A stretch of 64,000 bases of DNA. Source: Tepidiforma bonchosmolovskayae (GTDB taxonomy: Bacteria; Chloroflexota; Dehalococcoidia; Tepidiformales; Tepidiformaceae). The stretch spans positions 124,001 through 188,000 of the forward strand of contig NZ_CP042829.1 of NCBI RefSeq assembly GCF_008838325.1, written 5' to 3'. Below the pieces are notes generated by a model that had not been told where the DNA came from, did not search any database, and was given only the letters and a program-made list of their open reading frames with translations. Positions 20,738-30,438 of this stretch are shown one piece after another. Numbering within the stretch: position 1 is the stretch's first letter; each line of letters begins with the position of its first letter. Position numbers and translations under genes: made by a program.

Positions 20738-21727
20738 CTAGCCCCCGGCGAGCATCCGCCGAAGGTCGCCGATGGTGGCGTGCGGGCCGTCGCCTCCAGC
20801 GGCAGCAATCCGGGTCGCGAGTTCCCGGACAAGGCGGTTCGCCGGGGTCGGGACGCCATGGAGCGCACCGAGCAGGACGATCTCGCCGTTAAGGTAGTCA
20901 ACTTCGGTGACGGTGTGTCCCCGTAGCACGCTCTGGAGCGTCGAACTCCCGGCCCGGCCTTCGCCCGCGACCGGTACCGAGCGGTAATGACGGGTGACAC
21001 GCTCGGCGTATTCGGCGGGGGAAACCGCGCGGATCCCGGCGGCCTGGTAGCAGGCCTCGCCTTCGGCGCGCAGCAGGGCAAGGAAATCGCCGACCTCGCC
21101 CCCTGCGCCCCAGGAGCTGGTCCCGAGGATGACATCGAGCCCGTTGCCCAGGTTCAGCAGCAGTTTGCGGTACTTGAGGGCCAGGGCATCGTCGACGGCC
21201 TCGCTGCGGAAGCCGGCGCCGTCGAGCGCGCCGCAAACAGCGCGAATCAGCGGGTCGGTGCCGCGCGGGTATCGCCCGGCATGGAGGCATCCGCTGAGCG
21301 GTGCCCCCGAGGCGAGGATGACCCCCGGCTCGAGGTGGGTGGCCGGGAGCGCGACGAGCATTGCGTAGACATCGGTAAACCGGCGTGCTGCGAGGCGCTC
21401 GTTCTCGACGCCGTTCTGCGCACAGACCACCGGAACCCTGCAGCCGGCCGCTCGTTCGAGTTCGGCGAGCGCGGCTGCGGTGTCCTGGGTCTTCATGCAG
21501 AGGAGGACGACGTCGTCAGCACGCCACACCACCTCTGCCGGGCTTCCCGCGGCCGGGATACGCAGCCGCCGTTCGCCCTCGGGCGTGCGGAACAGCAGGC
21601 CCTCTGAGCGGACCGCCTCGAGGTGCCTGCCCCGGCAGATGAGAACCACCTCGTGTCCGGCTTCGAACAGGCGGGCGCCGATGGTCCCTCCGACGGCGCC
21701 GGCACCGTAGACGACGAAGCGGGTCAC
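20738..21727 (-). CDS. panE: Ketopantoate reductase-like (PanE/ApbA) oxidoreductase
   Basis: A 329-residue NADP-dependent reductase family that turns 2-dehydropantoate into pantoate for coenzyme A. Rossmann GAGAVGGTIG at the N-terminus, R for NADP (ICRGRH), then MKTQD, AQNGVEN and the catalytic lysine region ALKYRKLLLN. ATG 21727 overlaps the DUF5317 stop (ATGA). The family includes enzymes for other 2-oxo acids, so pantoate synthesis is likely but not proven; no other pan gene is near. Confidence 0.8.
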   Translation of the reverse strand: MTRFVVYGAGAVGGTIGARLFEAGHEVVLICRGRHLEAVRSEGLLFRTPEGERRLRIPAAGSPAEVVWRADDVVLLCMKTQDTAAALAELERAAGCRVPVVCAQNGVENERLAARRFTDVYAMLVALPATHLEPGVILASGAPLSGCLHAGRYPRGTDPLIRAVCGALDGAGFRSEAVDDALALKYRKLLLNLGNGLDVILGTSSWGAGGEVGDFLALLRAEGEACYQAAGIRAVSPAEYAERVTRHYRSVPVAGEGRAGSSTLQSVLRGHTVTEVDYLNGEIVLLGALHGVPTPANRLVRELATRIAAAGGDGPHATIGDLRRMLAGG

Positions 21728-22287
21728 CGCTCGCTTCCCCCGGCGTGGTCAGCGGGAAGGTCGGCCGCCGGCCGGGGCACCGGGGCCGGCCGGAGCGCCT
21801 CGAAGGCGGCCTGCAGCACGATGAGGCCGAGCCCGGCGAAGAGAACGAAGTCGCCGAGGGAGTAGATGTTGGTCCCGTAGATCGGCAGGTCAACGATGTA
21901 GCGGTCGGAGAGCCAGAAGAAACGGATATCGTCGCGCCTGAGGACGACGTCTTTCCCGTGATTGGTCTGCCGGCCGATATCGGCTTCGGTGACCTCGGGG
22001 AAGGCTCCAGACCGCTCGAGGATTGCGTAGTCGATCGGCATCGCGCCGCCATGGGCGGTCATCGGGACGACGTTCAGCAGAATGCCGGCTGCGACGAGCC
22101 ATGCGCCCAGGAACCGGCGGAAATGAAGCGCAAGACCAGCAAGGGCGATCGTGGTGACGAGGAAGAGCAACCGCCGGGCGGCTCCGGCGGCGCCGTCGAG
22201 CGGCATGTACGAGATGGCGAGTTGCTGCGCGAGGAAGATGGCTGCAGCGACCCCCAGGACAGCAACATCGCCCGCATGGCGTTTCAC
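21724..22287 (-). CDS. DUF5317-family membrane protein
   Basis: A 187-residue protein with about four membrane helices (GVAAAIFLAQQLAI, LLFLVTTIALAGLAL, GAWLVAAGILLNVVP, GDFVLFAGLGLIVLQAAF). The GGAMPIDY and NIYSLGDF signatures match DUF5317, whose function is unknown. A soluble loop of about 60 residues separates helices 3 and 4. It begins 55 bases after the 29-residue peptide gene on the same strand and overlaps the PanE-like gene, so the three are probably co-transcribed. Confidence 0.7.
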   Translation of the reverse strand: MKRHAGDVAVLGVAAAIFLAQQLAISYMPLDGAAGAARRLLFLVTTIALAGLALHFRRFLGAWLVAAGILLNVVPMTAHGGAMPIDYAILERSGAFPEVTEADIGRQTNHGKDVVLRRDDIRFFWLSDRYIVDLPIYGTNIYSLGDFVLFAGLGLIVLQAAFEALRPAPVPRPAADLPADHAGGSER

Positions 22288-22319
22288 GCGGGCGATTGTC
22301 GCGAATTTCCTGACCGGCT

Positions 22320-22342: not shown

Positions 22343-22432
22343 CTACCAGGACTGATAGGGGGCCGCGCCAGCGAGGGCGATGATGGCGAGCGCCGAAACG
22401 GAGATGGCGAGCGAAACGAGGCGGCGAGTCAC
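22343..22432 (-). CDS. 29-residue secreted-type micro-peptide
   Basis: A reading frame with a good GGAGGA Shine-Dalgarno 8-9 bases before GTG 22432. The product starts MTRR (positive), has a hydrophobic run of about 18 residues, then an AGA motif and the tail APYQSW. This is the plan of a signal-peptide precursor releasing a six-residue C-terminal peptide, as in Gram-positive peptide pheromones; it could alternatively be a single-helix membrane peptide or a leader peptide. It follows the 1057-residue TPR/BTAD regulator by 90 bases on the same strand. A palindrome (22486-22502) lies 54 bases before the start. Confidence 0.55.
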   Translation of the reverse strand: MTRRLVSLAISVSALAIIALAGAAPYQSW

Positions 22433-22485
22433 GAGCGGGTTCCTCCAGGACCGTGTTGTCGGGCCCGAAGGTAAGCACCCGGTTA

Positions 22486-22502
22486 TCGCGAAATTCTCGC
22501 GA
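22486..22502. promoter_or_regulatory. Palindrome TCGCGA-AATTC-TCGCGA upstream of the micro-peptide gene
   Basis: Six-base inverted arms with a 5-base centre. Leftwards, an extended -10-like TGcTTACCT follows (hexamer about 22475-22470), putting the palindrome around the -35, the usual position for an activator. A related AATTCGCGA half-site lies near 22300, upstream of DUF5317. Confidence 0.5.
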
Positions 22503-22522
22503 GCTACGCGACCGGCCCCGGA

Positions 22523-25500
22523 TTACACCGCTACGCCGGCTGCGATGGCCGCGCGCAGTTCGAAGAAGCGCTCGGGCAGGGGCTCGCCCAGCTCCTGCTC
22601 GTACAGCTCGGCGTACTGGTCGATGAAGTGCAGCGCCTGAACCGCCTGCCCCGCGCGGCTCCGGTAGCGGGCGAGTTCGTAGGCGGCCTCCTCGTTGAAG
22701 CGATCGTTGCGGAGGATGCGTTCGAGGCAGAGAACGGCGGACTCGAAATCGTTCCGCGCGGCGAAGTACCCGGCGAGGGCGGCAAGGGAAGCGTGCGCGG
22801 CCTCGTGCAGGCGCGTGCGGACGCCGGCCGCCCATTCTGACTCGAACACCTCCGCAAACGGACCCTCGTAGAGCTCGAGCGCCTCCTGGAAGGCGAGGGC
22901 CCGCTCCTTGCTGCCGGGCTGCGCCCGGTGGGCCCGCTCGACGGCAGCCTCGAACTTCTCGACGTCCCATTCGAACTGGCCCTCCGGGTTCAGGAGATAC
23001 GCACCGTCCTGCTTGACGACGCAATCCTGGTAGAGGGCCCGGCGGACCCGGTAGAGGTTGGAGTGGAAGGCGGAGTTGCACTTCTCCCGAGGCAGCTCGG
23101 GATAGAGCATCTCAACCGCCTGCTCCTTGCGAATGCCATCGCGGTGCGCCAGGAGGAGGAAGAAGAGCTCCTTCGCGCGGACGCTGGCCCACTGCTCGTC
23201 GCTCACCTGCCGCCCGCCGACCGTGACCGCCACGCGCCCGAGGCTCCGCGCCACCACGCGGGGGAACCGGCCAGTGCCGGGCTCGGCATTGGGTTCGGCG
23301 GCATCGCCGCTGACGAGGAAGCTCTGGCGCTCGAGGATGTCGCGGAACCAGCGCCCCGCAGCGGGGCGGGAGGCAGCCCACTGGGCGAACATCGGGTTCT
23401 CGCGGACGAGGGGGATGAGGGACTGCGTCATCCAGGGCTGGCGGATCGCTTCAGCGCACTTCGCGAGCGACTCCTGGGCCTCGGCGCGCCGGTTCGCGCG
23501 GAACTGGGCCATGGCAACCCGGTACCAGCCAGCAGCCGCCATCGGTGCGACATCCATCTGCTCGAACGCCTCGGCGGCTTCACGGGCGAGCGAGACCGCT
23601 GAGGCGGCATTCCCGGCGGCAAGGTCGACGGCGGCCTGGCGAAGCCGGCAGTACGCGATTTCGTAGGGGTTGCCCGAAGCAAGCGCCACGAGCATTGCCC
23701 GGCGTGCGAAGAAGTCGGCCTGCTGGAGGTCGCCCTGGCCGAGGTACGCCGCGGAGAGGCCGCCGATCGCGAGGGCCGCGAGGGTCTCATCGAGGGCCTC
23801 GTTCGCGCAGATGCGAATGGCTTCCTCGAAATGCTCCTGAGCCTTCCGGAAGTGCCCGAGGGCGAGTTCGGCATCGCCGAGGGAGCCGGTGGCGTAGGCG
23901 ACGTTCCGGCGGTTGCCGCAGGCGATGCCTTCGGCCACGGCCTCTTCGAGGACGGCGACGGCGCTGCGGAAGTCGCCGGCGTCGAGATGTGCCATCCCGA
24001 GGTTGTTCAAGGTCCAGCCAAGGTTGGACGAGCGCCCGAGAGCACGCCAGCCCTGCGCTGCCCGGGTGAGCATCGTTACGGCAGCTGGCGCGTCGCCGTG
24101 CATGGCGAGGGCCTGGCCGAGCGTCGAACGGGCGAGCAGGTCGAGCGGCGAGACCTGGTGCCGCTCCGCCTCGTCGATGGCCAGGCGGAGGAGCTCTTCA
24201 GCGCGCTGGAAGTTCCGGGTGACGCTCAGCTCGATTTCGGCGCGCTGGAAGACCACTTCGGCGCGGAGGGCCGCATCGCCGGACCAGTCGATGGCACGGA
24301 GGTGTTCGGCCTCGGCAAGCAGCTCCTCGTGTCGGCCGAGGAGGCGGAGAGCACGCAGGCGGGCAAGGTGCGCATGAATGCGGACCGCCCCGCGGGCATC
24401 GGGGGCACCCAGGACCAGGGCCGCAAGGCGGAGGGCCTCCTCAGGGTCACCGACGTGCGCCTCGACCCGGGCCTTGAGGGCCTGAAGAAGCGGGTCCCGC
24501 TCGAGCGTGGCATGTCCCAGGGCCGCGAACGCCTCCTTCAGGAGGGAGAAGGAGCCGCGAATGATCAGGTGGTGCCCGTGGCGGGCCAGCAGCCCGGCGA
24601 GCTGCAGCTCCGTGCCCTGGCTCCGGGCCAGCTCCACTGCCTCGGCGTACCGCCCCATCCTGGTGAGGGAGGCAAGCACCTCTTCCATGGCGGCCTGGAA
24701 GCCGTCAGGGTCGGCCGCAGCAAAATCTTCGGCGATGAACTGGCGCAGAAGAGGATTCAGGCGGAACTCACGGGGCGAGAGGTGTTCGCAAAGAAAATCG
24801 CGCCGGCTCAGCCATGCGACGAGGTCCCGCCAGGCGCGGAGGCCGAACTCGATTTCGACGAAGGAGCGCTCAATCGAGGGCTGAAGCGCCAGGCGGTGGA
24901 GCACCTGGCGGAGGTCGGCGGGGACGCGGGCCCAGACTTCGCTGGCGAGGTACCGATGGAAATCGGCGGCGGAAACCCCCGAGACGGCATCGCCGGCAAG
25001 CGTGGCCATGACGCCGACCGGCCAGCCCCCGGTCTGCTCGAGGACCTGCCCCGGGTCCAACCGGGCGCCGGTCACCTCGATGGCGGCACGAACCTCGTCG
25101 GCCGAGAAGGCGAGTACGGAGGCATCGATGACCGTCACCTCGCCAGTCGCGACCCGCTCGTTGATGGCCGGGAGGAACGGGAGTTCGCGGCCGACCAGCA
25201 CGACCTCGTGTCCGTCGCTCATCGCTTCGATCAGCCAGCCGAGGAGCTGGAGGGACTCGTGCGAGTCGGCGAGTTCGTGCACGTTGTCGATGACGAGAAG
25301 AAGCGGGCGCGGCGTCGAGGCGGAGACGTCGTGGACAGCGGCTCCGATGTATGCCTGCAGGTCGCTCAGCCGGAGGGCGGTCGGCGGAGGGGGAGCAAGC
25401 CGGTTGCGGTAGAGCGCGCAGCCGAGCTGGTGGGCGAGCGCCTCGGGCGCGTGGGCCGTGCTGTCGAGCGACACCCACCGCGGTTCGTAGTCGACTTCTT

Positions 25501-25696
25501 CGAGCGCGAGGGCCACGGCAGTCGACTTGCCGAAGCCGGCGGGAGCGATAACCGCGATCACGCCGTTCCCGATCGCTTCGTGGATGCGGGCCACGACCGC
25601 GGGCCGGGCAACCAGGCGCCGGGGGAGACGCGGCACGGCGATCCGCCCACCAGGGTTTGCCCGTGGCCGCGTGGAGGTCGTGAGTGTTGCCGTCAT
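22523..25696 (-). CDS. Large STAND ATPase/TPR transcriptional regulator with C-terminal winged helix and BTAD domain
   Basis: A 1057-residue signal-transduction regulator. MalT-like NTPase at the N-terminus (Walker A APAGFGKST, about 51-59; Walker B LLLVIDNVHEL, about 135), helical region, then about 450 residues of TPR repeats (for example LGWTLNNLGMAHLDAGDFRSAVAVLEEA), then an OmpR-type winged helix (VRAKELFFLLLAHRDG, about 880) and a BTAD domain at the end. STAND proteins switch on when the TPR region binds a ligand. ATG 25696 has AGGA close upstream; TTG 25708 is an alternative. The micro-peptide gene next to it is a possible ligand source. Confidence 0.85.
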   Translation of the reverse strand: MTATLTTSTRPRANPGGRIAVPRLPRRLVARPAVVARIHEAIGNGVIAVIAPAGFGKSTAVALALEEVDYEPRWVSLDSTAHAPEALAHQLGCALYRNRLAPPPPTALRLSDLQAYIGAAVHDVSASTPRPLLLVIDNVHELADSHESLQLLGWLIEAMSDGHEVVLVGRELPFLPAINERVATGEVTVIDASVLAFSADEVRAAIEVTGARLDPGQVLEQTGGWPVGVMATLAGDAVSGVSAADFHRYLASEVWARVPADLRQVLHRLALQPSIERSFVEIEFGLRAWRDLVAWLSRRDFLCEHLSPREFRLNPLLRQFIAEDFAAADPDGFQAAMEEVLASLTRMGRYAEAVELARSQGTELQLAGLLARHGHHLIIRGSFSLLKEAFAALGHATLERDPLLQALKARVEAHVGDPEEALRLAALVLGAPDARGAVRIHAHLARLRALRLLGRHEELLAEAEHLRAIDWSGDAALRAEVVFQRAEIELSVTRNFQRAEELLRLAIDEAERHQVSPLDLLARSTLGQALAMHGDAPAAVTMLTRAAQGWRALGRSSNLGWTLNNLGMAHLDAGDFRSAVAVLEEAVAEGIACGNRRNVAYATGSLGDAELALGHFRKAQEHFEEAIRICANEALDETLAALAIGGLSAAYLGQGDLQQADFFARRAMLVALASGNPYEIAYCRLRQAAVDLAAGNAASAVSLAREAAEAFEQMDVAPMAAAGWYRVAMAQFRANRRAEAQESLAKCAEAIRQPWMTQSLIPLVRENPMFAQWAASRPAAGRWFRDILERQSFLVSGDAAEPNAEPGTGRFPRVVARSLGRVAVTVGGRQVSDEQWASVRAKELFFLLLAHRDGIRKEQAVEMLYPELPREKCNSAFHSNLYRVRRALYQDCVVKQDGAYLLNPEGQFEWDVEKFEAAVERAHRAQPGSKERALAFQEALELYEGPFAEVFESEWAAGVRTRLHEAAHASLAALAGYFAARNDFESAVLCLERILRNDRFNEEAAYELARYRSRAGQAVQALHFIDQYAELYEQELGEPLPERFFELRAAIAAGVAV

Positions 25697-25745
25697 GTTC
25701 CTGCGCAATGGTACGCCGGCAAACGGCTGGTCGCCAGACAGTTCC

Positions 25746-25806: not shown

Positions 25807-26745
25807 ATGCACATGCGATGGTTGTTCCTGCCTGCGCTCGTTGCCGGGGCGGCCCTGCTCGCTGCCGCTGCCGCCCTCGAGGCGCCGGCCAGGGCGGCGG
25901 GACCTTGCGGCACCAGTCACGACGCCCTCGACACCGAGGAAATGCAGTTCATCCAGCTCGTTCAGGCGTGGCGGGACCAGCACGTCTCGCCGTCGACGCC
26001 GCTCCAGGTTTCGGGCGCCCTGAACGCCGCCGCGGCATGGTTCGCGCAGTGGCAGGTCGACAACGGCGCGCCGGGCGGCCACACCGATGGTCTCGGACGG
26101 TCCTGGCCGCAGCGGGCCCTCGACTGCGGCTATTCGGGCACGACCTCGTCGGGTACGCCCTACGCGTACGGGAGCGGCGAGGGCATCCGTGCGTACGCGG
26201 CGAGCCAGCCGCTGGTCATCAGCGCGGCCCAGGCGGCAGCGGACATCACCTACCCGGGGAGCGGCGTCTGGGCGTCGACGCCTTCGTCGTCGCTCCCGTT
26301 CAAGTGCGTTGGGGCGGCCCGGGCATCCAGCACCGATGGCAAGCGAGTCGCCTGGGTCATCGTGATCGCGCAGTACCCCGCGAACCAGCCGTGCCCGGGA
26401 GCAGCGACCCTGCCACCGGCCTCGCCGAGCGTCACCTCGACGCCGACCCCGACCCCGACGCCGACGGCCACGCCGTCACCGACGCCCACGCCGGGCCCGC
26501 GGGGCGACGGCGCGTCGGTCACGATCTGGCAGGGGTGGAACCTGGTGATGCTCCCAGCCGGGCCGGTCGAGCAGGTGCTCGCCAGGGCTTCGGGATGCTA
26601 CGCGGCGGTGTACCGGTTCGACGGCGTGCAGTGGCGGAGGTACATCCCGGGGGCACCGGGGTATGTCAATTCGCTGCATGTGCTCGACGGCGGGCCGGTC
26701 TGGGTCGCCGGCACCGCGGCCAACTGCGGACTGGTCCTGCTCTGA
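25807..26745 (+). CDS. Secreted CAP-like (SCP/PR1) protein with Pro/Thr linker
   Basis: About 312 residues. Signal peptide (LFLPALVAGAALLAAAAAL) ending APARA, then a CAP-like domain (FIQLVQAWRDQH, then GGHTDGLGRSWPQRALDCGY and SGEGIRAY) with paired cysteines, a linker of TPTPT repeats, and a C-terminal domain of about 80 residues (IWQGWNLVMLPAG to TAANCGLVLL) seen in other secreted Chloroflexota proteins. Function unknown; export is clear. Start is uncertain between ATG 25774, 25807 and 25813, none with a Shine-Dalgarno; 25807 is used because 25774 lies in the -10 box. Confidence 0.65.
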   Translation: MHMRWLFLPALVAGAALLAAAAALEAPARAAGPCGTSHDALDTEEMQFIQLVQAWRDQHVSPSTPLQVSGALNAAAAWFAQWQVDNGAPGGHTDGLGRSWPQRALDCGYSGTTSSGTPYAYGSGEGIRAYAASQPLVISAAQAAADITYPGSGVWASTPSSSLPFKCVGAARASSTDGKRVAWVIVIAQYPANQPCPGAATLPPASPSVTSTPTPTPTPTATPSPTPTPGPRGDGASVTIWQGWNLVMLPAGPVEQVLARASGCYAAVYRFDGVQWRRYIPGAPGYVNSLHVLDGGPVWVAGTAANCGLVLL

Positions 26746-26757
26746 CGCGGGGATGGG

Positions 26758-26943
26758 CTAGAGGGAGCCGGGGAGCACCGTAAACCCGGGGGAGTTCGCG
26801 ATGGCCTGGCCGAGCGTCGCCAGGGCAGCGACGCACACGAGGGCGATGAGGGCGAGGATGAGGGCGTACTCGGCCAGTCCCTGCCCTTCTTCGCGGGCGT
26901 GCGAAGCGGCGCAGGCAGCGAGCCACGTAGCGAGTCGTTTCAT
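26758..26943 (-). CDS. Flp/Fap-type pilin
   Basis: A 61-residue prepilin. EEGQGLAEYALILALIALVC is the Flp signature: a glycine cleavage site before LAEY, a conserved glutamate at +4 and tyrosine, and a hydrophobic stem. Flp pilins are cut by a TadV-type peptidase and assembled by Tad machinery for adhesion. No tad genes are in this window, so the pilin is separated from its machine. Its tail ends NSPGFTVLPGSL. ATG is preceded by a G-run rather than a strong Shine-Dalgarno. Confidence 0.88.
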   Translation of the reverse strand: MKRLATWLAACAASHAREEGQGLAEYALILALIALVCVAALATLGQAIANSPGFTVLPGSL

Positions 26944-28274: not shown

Positions 28275-28359
28275 GGGGAAGTGTCGGAATCGGCAGACGA
28301 GCATGACTTAGGATCATGTGCCGCAAGGCGTAGGAGTTCGAGTCTCCTCTTCCCCACCA
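28275..28359 (+). tRNA. tRNA-Leu (UAG)
   Basis: Acceptor GGGGAAG/CTTCCCC, anticodon stem CATGA/TCATG around CTTAGGA, a variable arm (GTGCCGCAAGGCGT) as in class II tRNAs, and encoded CCA. It lies 49 bases after tRNA-Lys and ahead of the ABC genes. Confidence 0.95.
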
Positions 28360-28424
28360 CTCGAGCTCAGCCGGGCGGCCAGCACCGGTCACTGCCGGCA
28401 ATGCCGGGCGCGAAAGGAGAAGGG

Positions 28425-29426
28425 ATGCCGCTACTCGAGGTCAAAGACCTGCGCACGTACTTCTACACGCAGGAGGGCGTCGTCAAGGCGGTCGACGGCA
28501 CCTCGTACGTGGTCGAAGAGGGGGAGACCCTCGGGCTCGTCGGGGAATCCGGGTGCGGGAAGAGCGTTTCGGCGCTCTCGATTCTCCGGCTCATTCCGCA
28601 GCCGCCCGGCAAAATCGTCTCCGGCGAGATCATCTTCAAAGGGCGCGACCTGCTGAAGCTGGACGAGGACGAAATCCGGAAGGTCCGCGGCAACGAGATC
28701 GGGATGGTCTTCCAGGAGCCGATGACCTCGCTCAACCCCGTCCTCACCATCGGTCGCCAGCTGACGGAGACGCTCGAGCTTCACATGAACCTCCACGGCC
28801 AGGCGGCTCGCGACCGCGCCGCGGAACTGCTGGAAATGGTCGGCATCCCCGAGGCGAAACGCCGCCTGGACGATTACCCGCACCAGTTCTCCGGCGGGAT
28901 GCGCCAGCGCGTCATGATCGCCATGGCGATGAGCTGCAACCCCAAGCTGCTCCTCGCCGATGAGCCGACGACAGCGCTGGACGTGACGATCCAGGCGCAG
29001 ATCCTCGAAGTCATGAACCGGCTGAGCCGGGAGTTCGGGACGGCGGTCATCATCATCACCCACAACCTCGGCGTGGTGGCACGCTACGCCGACCGGGTGA
29101 ATGTGATGTACGCGGGCCGGGTCATCGAGACCGCCTCCGCGGTGGAGCTGTACCGGAATCCGAAGCACCCGTACACGGTCGGGCTGCTCAACTCCGTGCC
29201 GCGCCTCGATGAGCGGCGCAAGGAGAAGCTCATTCCGATCGAGGGCCTTCCGCCGGACCTCGCCCATCTCCCGCCGGGCTGCCCGTTCTACCCGCGCTGC
29301 GCGTGGCGGGTGGACCGCTGCCGCGAGGAGTATCCGCCCTTCAACCTCGTAGGCGAGAAGCACTACGCCGCCTGCTGGGAATCAGAACGTGTCCGCCGGG
29401 AGGTGCCCGTTGGCGCAGCAAACTAG
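28425..29426 (+). CDS. Peptide ABC transporter ATP-binding protein (DppD/OppD type)
   Basis: A 333-residue ATPase for oligopeptide, dipeptide or nickel uptake. Walker [10 protein letters not shown]-loop [11 protein letters not shown], signature FSGGMRQR, Walker [13 protein letters not shown]-loop THNLG and the C-terminal [10 protein letters not shown] cysteine motif. AAGGAGA 6 bases before ATG 28425 fixes the start inside a longer frame. Permease and binding-protein genes are not adjacent, so the two ATPases here serve membrane parts encoded elsewhere. Confidence 0.95.
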
Positions 29427-30438
29427 CTCCACCGCACGGCAGGGTCGCGCCGCCATCGGCGATACCCTCGTCAAGGTCGAAGGCCTCAAGGTCTACTTCC
29501 CGGTCACCTCGGGCATCATCTTCCAGCGCAAAGTCGCCGACGTCCGCGCGGTCGACGGCATTTCGTTTGAAATCCGGCGCGGCGAGACGCTCGGCCTCGT
29601 GGGTGAGTCGGGGTGCGGCAAGAGCACGACCGGCAAGGCGATCCTGCAGCTGACCCGGCCGACGGAAGGGTCGGTCATTTTCGACGGCACCGACCTGACC
29701 AAGGTGAAGGGCGGGGAGCTACGCCGCTTCCGCCGGCGGATGCAGATGATCTTCCAGGACCCCTACGCGAGCCTGAATCCGCGCATGTCCGTGGGGAGCA
29801 TCATCAGCGAGCCGCTGACCATCCATAAGCTCGCGAGCGGCAAAGAGAAGAAGGAGCGGGTCCAGCAGCTGCTCCAGACGGTTGGCCTGAACCCGTATTT
29901 CGCGAACCGGTTCCCGCACGAGTTCTCGGGCGGGCAGCGGCAGCGCATCGGCATCGCCCGCGCGCTTGCGGTGCAGCCGGACTTCATCGTGTGCGACGAG
30001 CCGGTCTCGGCGCTCGATGTCTCGATCCAGGCCCAGATCATCAACCTGCTCCAGGATCTGCAGGACCAGTTCGGGCTGACCTATCTGTTCATCGCCCACG
30101 ACCTTTCGGTGGTCCGGCACATCTCGGACCGGGTCGGGGTAATGTACCTCGGCCACATGATGGAGCTGACGGACCGGGACTCGATTTTTGAGAACCCGCT
30201 CCACCCCTACACTAAGGCGCTCCTTTCGGCGGTCCCGATTCCCGACCCTGACGTCGAGCGAAAGCGCGAGCGGATCATCCTCCTCGGCGACGTGCCGAGC
30301 CCGCTGCGGCCGCCTCCCGGCTGCGTCTTCCACACGCGCTGCCCGATCGCCATTGACGAGTGCCGCGCCCGGCGCCCCGACTGGCGGAACGTGGGCACGG
30401 CCGACCGCGAGCACTGGGTCTGGTGCCACCGGGTCTAG
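29410..30438 (+). CDS. Peptide ABC transporter ATP-binding protein (DppF/OppF type)
   Basis: The partner ATPase, about 342 residues: [43 protein letters not shown] and the cysteine motif [13 protein letters not shown] 29389 is an alternative start; TTG 29410 is preferred because GGGAGG lies 6 bases before it. It overlaps the DppD-type gene by 17 bases, so translation is coupled and the pair probably forms a heterodimer. A terminator hairpin follows at 30473-30500. Confidence 0.93.

Follow-up and report, generated by a model that had tools for sequence, protein, structure and literature searches.

Three kinds of described systems come closest in plan to the locus considered here, a module of a 29-codon peptide gene, a STAND-TPR-SARP regulator and a DUF5317 membrane protein in a 64,000-nucleotide stretch (hereafter the window) of Tepidiforma bonchosmolovskayae (GCF_008838325.1, contig NZ_CP042829.1, positions 124,001-188,000), whose genome is a single 2.75-Mb contig. 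In the Rgg/SHP pheromone systems (PMC9765709, PMC5597970) a TPR-fold regulator lies beside a very short hydrophobic peptide gene, the C-terminal end of the peptide is the active part, and the regulator can have as its target a single cluster headed by the peptide gene. In the AfsR-afsS system of Streptomyces (PMC10936776) one regulator unites a winged helix and BTAD with an ATPase and TPRs, 11-bp direct repeats lie just upstream of the -10 element, and a small-protein gene is the known target. Activators of the MalT/STAND-LAL type combine an N-terminal STAND ATPase with a TPR sensor region. The Tepidiforma module shares features with each of these, and its recurrence as a regulator-peptide-membrane-protein set across Chloroflexota may represent an undescribed peptide signalling circuit.

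It also departs from each of them. Relative to Rgg/SHP, the regulator has a STAND ATPase and a C-terminal SARP part and comes from Chloroflexota, and peptide binding and import are putative here. Relative to AfsR-type regulators the domain order is reversed (ATPase-TPR-SARP here, SARP N-terminal there), the N-terminal ATPase is MalT-like, DUF5317 is added and the phylum is another. AfsS is unlike the hydrophobic, exported-type product found here. Unlike MalT, the regulator ends in a SARP/BTAD part rather than one of the LuxR type, and its target is a peptide gene rather than sugar genes (the MalT likeness is seen in Foldseek matches to 8bob and 6mfv). An earlier sequence-only reading of this DNA had likened the module to the RRNPP-type circuits, whose transcription regulators carry an N-terminal helix-turn-helix (HTH) and were surveyed in Firmicutes (PMC9765709). 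We reject membership of that group on architecture, as there is no N-terminal HTH and the phylum is different: the N-terminus is an AAA/STAND ATPase and the DNA-binding part is the C-terminal SARP. One characteristic of that group is nevertheless present, namely a TPR-type domain (Pfam and the solenoid of the structural model, a match of domain type only). A second, a propeptide encoded beside the receptor with an export-type N-terminus and an active C-terminus, may have its counterpart in the adjacent exported-type peptide with a conserved AP site and a variable tail. In the RRNPP group the mature peptide also re-enters the cell through Opp and binds the receptor, a step that would be hypothetical here. 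Among open-licence PMC papers we found none on peptide signalling in Chloroflexota and no mention of DUF5317.

The 29-codon gene and its regulator

Comparison with related genomes shows that the 29-codon frame is a genuine gene and is conserved, as the sequence-only reading had proposed when it pointed to a short gene with a good Shine-Dalgarno sequence, 90 bases from a STAND ATPase with TPR repeats and a winged helix. The features concerned are:

22343..22432, minus strand: 29-codon peptide gene with GTG start, MTRRLVSLAISVSALAIIALAGAAPYQSW (genus and family conservation, pN/pS)
22442..22446, minus strand: Shine-Dalgarno sequence GGAGG, 9 nucleotides before the GTG (read in the sequence, kept within the genus)
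22523..25696, minus strand: STAND-TPR-SARP regulator of 1057 residues, ATG at 25696 (Pfam AAA_22, TPR and BTAD; AlphaFold model)
24707..25609, minus strand: AAA/STAND ATPase part of the regulator, about residues 30-330 (Pfam, model)
23327..24709, minus strand: TPR solenoid of the regulator, about residues 330-790, candidate ligand-binding part (Pfam, model)
22544..23260, minus strand: SARP-type winged helix (about residues 813-905) and BTAD (911-1051) of the regulator (Pfam, model)

The frame running from 22432 to 22343 translates as VTRRLVSLAISVSALAIIALAGAAPYQSW followed by a stop, and 90 nucleotides separate the regulator stop from the peptide gene. It is present and intact in 6/6 Tepidiforma genomes, where the genus-wide form MTRRLVSLAISVSALAIIALAGAAPYQSW shows few replacements and the changes are mostly synonymous; the pooled ratio of nonsynonymous to synonymous polymorphism (pN/pS) is 0.09 in Tepidiforma and 0.16 in a second genus. 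The last ten residues, LAGAAPYQSW, are invariant in the genus while their codons differ (GCT/GCG/GCC, CCC/CCG/CCT, TAT/TAC), and the start codon is GTG here and in one further genome (G005) and ATG in the remaining four. Broken frames in orthologues and drift without codon constraint had been named in advance as grounds for abandoning the gene; both were looked for, and the figures above show neither. Judging by its sequence, the product has the plan of an exported-type peptide, with a basic start followed by a hydrophobic run, and searches against Pfam and NCBIfam returned no match for it.

The domains ascribed to the regulator were likewise borne out. Its AlphaFold model (predicted local distance difference test score, pLDDT, 88) comprises an ATPase, a long TPR-like solenoid, a winged helix and BTAD, and its top Foldseek matches are the STAND-TPR protein 6mfv and MalT (8bob). 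The BTAD match (PF03704) is above the cut-off, and secondary structure of a winged helix precedes it in the model. An alternative in-frame start is the TTG at 25708, and the stop lies at 22523. Paralogous SARP regulators and peptides in this genome were considered and discarded, as the regulator is the only clear BTAD protein, a second match being marginal, and a peptide profile search found one peptide copy.

Distribution and operator of the module

The comparison covered Tepidiforma species, including Tepidiforma flava YIM 72310, and other Dehalococcoidia genomes; the sampled genomes are related, and contig ends of metagenome-assembled genomes affect a few loci. Regulator, peptide and DUF5317 genes occur in the same order in all six Tepidiforma genomes. 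When 393 genomes of the class were searched with a peptide profile, all strong matches fell within the family of Tepidiforma. Within this family a regulator orthologue (E<1e-60) is present in 23/38 genomes, DUF5317 in the same 23, and the peptide again in the same 23, 22 being recovered by profile search and the last (G295) identified by reading the gap that follows its regulator. The other 15/38 family genomes have no regulator or DUF5317 at the thresholds used and no credible peptide. For this co-occurrence of the three genes Fisher's test gives p 6e-11, a value to be read in the light of related, non-independent genomes. The target set proposed in the sequence-only reading, peptide/DUF5317/PanE, thus holds for DUF5317, which is found in exactly the same family genomes, and fails for PanE, which is adjacent in some genera only and is excluded as a target or constant part of the unit. 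The tails differ by lineage within the family: APYQSW, APFQSW, APIQSW, APVQWW, APVQPW, APFQNW, APFQHW, APFESW, APFQSI, APIAPW, APIMHY and APWMHY.

Upstream of the peptide gene lies a candidate operator and promoter:

22494..22502, minus strand: upstream direct repeat of the operator, TCGCGAGAA (sequence, whole-genome pattern scans)
22483..22491, minus strand: downstream direct repeat of the operator, TCGCGATAA, at a period of 11 bp to the upstream repeat
22468..22473, minus strand: -10-like TACCTT, exactly 9 nucleotides past the downstream repeat

Two 9-mers near TCGCGAGAA at a period of 11 bp, followed after exactly 9 nucleotides (counted from the 9-mer repeat) by TAnnnT, are found at 22/22 readable family loci; the start codon lies 45 to 73 nucleotides from the operator, depending on the locus. 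In G300 the locus is degenerate and truncated at a contig end. The TCGCGA that had been noticed near a -35 position belongs to this element, its supposed palindrome being one half of a direct repeat. The sites of SARP activators are described as direct repeats with a spacing of 11 or 22 bp, the 3' copy lying 8 bp from the -10 (PMC10936776), and the family operator agrees with this geometry within one base, depending on the assumed repeat end. The pattern used for the regulon scans, which are pattern searches, is degenerate and was built from the family loci themselves. It finds one site per module-bearing genome, with two in G196, and no site in the 15 module-less family genomes or with a reversed-pattern control; because the pattern was fitted to the loci, the informative parts of this result are the lack of extra sites and of any site in those 15 genomes. 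In the 2.75-Mb genome itself there is a single site even at ≤3 mismatches. Further, peptide and operator stay together in G353, whose regulator is unlinked, and in G278, whose regulator lies on the other side. On this comparative evidence it is very probable that the peptide is under the control of the regulator by way of this operator, and we infer control by activation rather than repression. The second site in G196, with 8-nucleotide spacing, precedes a response regulator.

The module recurs beyond the family. DUF5317 is present in 118/400 sampled Chloroflexota, and we read 80 DUF5317 loci outside the family, seeking the regulator with the family profile; as the wider distribution was reached by way of DUF5317, it covers, outside the class, the Chloroflexota that possess this protein. 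The regulator ends directly upstream of DUF5317 on the same strand in 21/80 loci, spread over nine other families. In 21/21 of these loci the gap holds a short frame with the same plan, as against 7/59 of the others, and in 0/80 on the reverse strand (p ~1e-13 for the 21/21 versus 7/59 contrast, the genomes again being related and not independent); the short frame that was expected beside regulator orthologues is found at every one of these loci where the regulator is adjacent. In some of the seven peptide loci without an adjacent regulator, a regulator lies a few kilobases off. Two further calls of the relaxed peptide caller (G554, G484) were judged spurious. Operators built from other half-sites, again 9 nucleotides from TAnnnT, were seen in 17/27 peptide loci, compared with 1.1% of mononucleotide shuffles, and in one family (f104) the operator has a period of 12. 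One genome carries three operator-peptide units in tandem before DUF5317 with no extra DUF5317 copies. Example sequences from loci outside the family are TTGTAAGTG, TTGAAGCCT and TTGTTCAGA.

In f104 genomes extra copies of the operator, correctly spaced from a -10, precede, by position only, two giant secreted RHS-repeat proteins in different genomes, a LuxR-type HTH gene and a histidine kinase. Two such copies (L292 in G611:C50 and L293 in G653:C14), with TAnnnT 9 nucleotides downstream, stand before secreted RHS-repeat/SpvB-like giants of >3300 residues. A third copy (L295 in G653:C6) precedes a small protein and a cluster that by eye comprises helicase, DUF262-like and DNA methylase-like genes and resembles a defence island. 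In family f118, peptides ending in LAAPFRWN (L219) and LGAPFRW (L221) precede DUF5317 with no SARP regulator nearby and no recognisable operator.

Peptide plan and DUF5317

Across 51 peptides the plan consists of a basic start, a hydrophobic run, the motif L[AG].[GA]AP and then a variable, high-entropy tail 3-19 residues long. L occupies position -3 in 36/51, A or G position -2, A position +1 in 50/51 and P position +2 in 48/51, counts that arise partly by construction, as the alignment was anchored on the motif, which does not apply to the hydrophobic run and the free tail. A conserved signal-type core with a C-terminal tail had been anticipated, and what is observed is a tail constrained within genera and varying between families. 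A processed signal would be expected to combine a constant site with a tail that varies, as seen here, but a membrane peptide bearing a short outer tail may also account for this.

The third member of the module and the structure at its start are:

21724..22287, minus strand: DUF5317 (PF17248) membrane protein of 187 residues (Pfam, family co-occurrence, model)
22267..22296, minus strand: inverted repeat spanning the start codon of DUF5317, ATCGCCCGCGTG..CATGCGGGCGAT, shown also as CGCCCGCGTG...CATGCGGGCG

The DUF5317 model (pLDDT 92) has four transmembrane helices with an extracytoplasmic beta part between the third and the fourth. Seven residues are invariant among 54 diverse DUF5317 sequences of about 20% identity, among them D128 and D146, which have a spacing of 18 residues and lie where the last transmembrane helix begins. 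Its weak Foldseek matches include the lipoprotein signal peptidase LspA (6ryp best, at E 2.9, with 6ryo and 5dir); the superposition on 5dir spans 94 residues with a root-mean-square deviation of 3.3 and Z 5.5, a level that a common helical arrangement could give. The LspA dyad is D124 and D143 in Pseudomonas aeruginosa (PMC8048626), and in the structure sequence of the Staphylococcus aureus chain its members are 18 apart. A weak hhalign alignment (P 0.0014, probability 17%) pairs D128/D146 with the LspA dyad region, scoring 26.9 against ≤18.8 in 60 shuffles. In Pfam, PF17248 is the sole family at E≤0.1, with no match to the LspA family PF01252, and a DUF5317 profile search of PDB sequences did not return LspA at E≤10, so that the link to LspA consists of fold (four transmembrane helices and the extracytoplasmic beta part), dyad spacing and a weak profile match. 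The similarity is at the edge of detection and, unlike LspA with its lipobox cysteine, the candidate substrate offers an A; a separate true LspA is encoded in this genome. The weak LspA resemblance with two invariant aspartates offers a lead that DUF5317 may mature the peptide as a candidate LspA-like aspartyl peptidase, a role we consider rather doubtful.

The inverted repeat at 22267-22296 recurs in close relatives although both of its arms have changed in sequence, which suggests control of DUF5317 at the RNA level. In other Chloroflexota families DUF5317 is fused to the N-terminus of MFS-type transporters (L245, L246 and L226; Pfam was run on L245 only). Among the neighbouring genes in the window, 25814-26745 encodes by eye a secreted CAP/SCP-like protein with a PT-rich linker, divergent from the regulator; the short frame at 26758-26943 on the minus strand resembles a pilin of the Flp/Tad type (MKRLATWLAACAASHAREEGQGLAEYALILALIALV...); and 28281-30438 holds two genes that by eye encode oligopeptide-type ABC ATPases, possible parts of a peptide-uptake system.

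Possible peptide signalling and its alternatives

The reading that we favour, at about even chances, is that this three-gene chromosomal module is an autoinducing peptide circuit. The STAND-TPR-SARP activator would bind the two direct repeats, which overlap the -35 region, and recruit RNA polymerase to the peptide promoter, with DUF5317 transcribed downstream of the peptide gene. The peptide, given its basic start and hydrophobic run, would enter or cross the membrane N-terminus first; a cut most likely near L[AG].[GA]AP, which the sequence-only reading had placed at an AGA site and which DUF5317 may make, would free the short lineage-specific tail (approximately APYQSW). This tail would most likely come back as the signal that activates the regulator by way of its TPR solenoid. 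Direct comparative support exists for the first of these steps only, regulator-operator control; export, cleavage, an enzymatic role of DUF5317 and sensing we infer. It is probable that the peptide leaves the membrane or is exported, and plausible, if a little short of even chances, that it is the regulator's signal, i.e. a sensed pheromone. A Chloroflexota-wide form of communication, with lineage-specific tails, DUF5317 as LspA-like peptidase, the STAND-TPR-SARP protein as receptor-activator and extra targets such as the giant RHS proteins in some genomes, would be a tentative and on balance unlikely extension.

Several observations weigh against an autoinducing circuit. Were the cut to fall between A and P, the proline following it would be unfavourable for signal peptidase I. 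Within a genus the tail hardly varies, as would also be the case for a structural membrane peptide. DUF5317 occurs in many genomes without the peptide and, in another family, fused to an MFS_3 transporter, which implies a wider, general role. The operator has a single target in this genome, so that no downstream behaviour is visibly regulated; a single-target circuit is no bar in itself, since the Rgg0939/SHP pheromone system of pneumococcus is known to drive a single cluster starting with its own peptide (PMC5597970). The main alternative, a serious one though well under even chances, is a small single-span membrane protein that acts within the producing cell, most likely by partnering or regulating DUF5317, with the TPR/SARP regulator sensing a metabolite or stress and turning on the pair, in the manner of AfsR and afsS, and no signal passing between cells. 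It accords with the tail's constancy within genera, with the adjacency of peptide and DUF5317, with one family in which the stop codon of the peptide gene touches or shares bases with the start codon of DUF5317 (GTGA or TAGTG), a hint of translational coupling, and with AfsR-afsS as the closest regulatory precedent (PMC10936776). It accords less well with a peptide that tracks the regulator more tightly than DUF5317 (the 21/21 versus 7/59 contrast), with tails that vary between families in length and sequence behind a near-invariant AP, more like a processed signal, and with tandem operator-peptide units to which no DUF5317 has been added.

Other explanations fare worse. A secreted antimicrobial or competition peptide, with DUF5317 as immunity or export protein, would account for a short exported-type product beside a membrane protein and for the extra operators before giant RHS-repeat proteins, often competition proteins, in some genomes of another family; it is improbable given predicted mature tails of about 3-19 residues with no bacteriocin signature, a single copy in most genomes and the lack of Pfam or NCBIfam matches. 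It is quite improbable that the frame serves merely as a leader, its translation governing the expression of DUF5317 and its product being without function: the strong hairpin between peptide and DUF5317, which lies over the DUF5317 start in close relatives, and the coupling in another family speak for it, but the constraint acts at the amino-acid level (the low pN/pS), the hydrophobic plan is kept over families, there is no run of regulatory codons, and the intergenic layout varies where the peptide plan does not. Short open reading frames are common, and a chance frame in GC-rich DNA might thus be suspected; comparative data already refute this, the peptide being conserved family-wide and its plan phylum-wide, and its probability is practically negligible.

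If the autoinducing circuit is real, circuits of a peptide with a TPR regulator would have arisen on a quite different, SARP/STAND chassis, and DUF5317 would gain a first role. Conserved genes of <30 codons, such as the one at its centre, are a class that automatic annotation would easily overlook. Tepidiforma flava, a strain with a complete genome, carries the module, so that synthetic peptides could be tried directly. A correct circuit would also provide the hard-to-culture Chloroflexota with a communication system open to testing.

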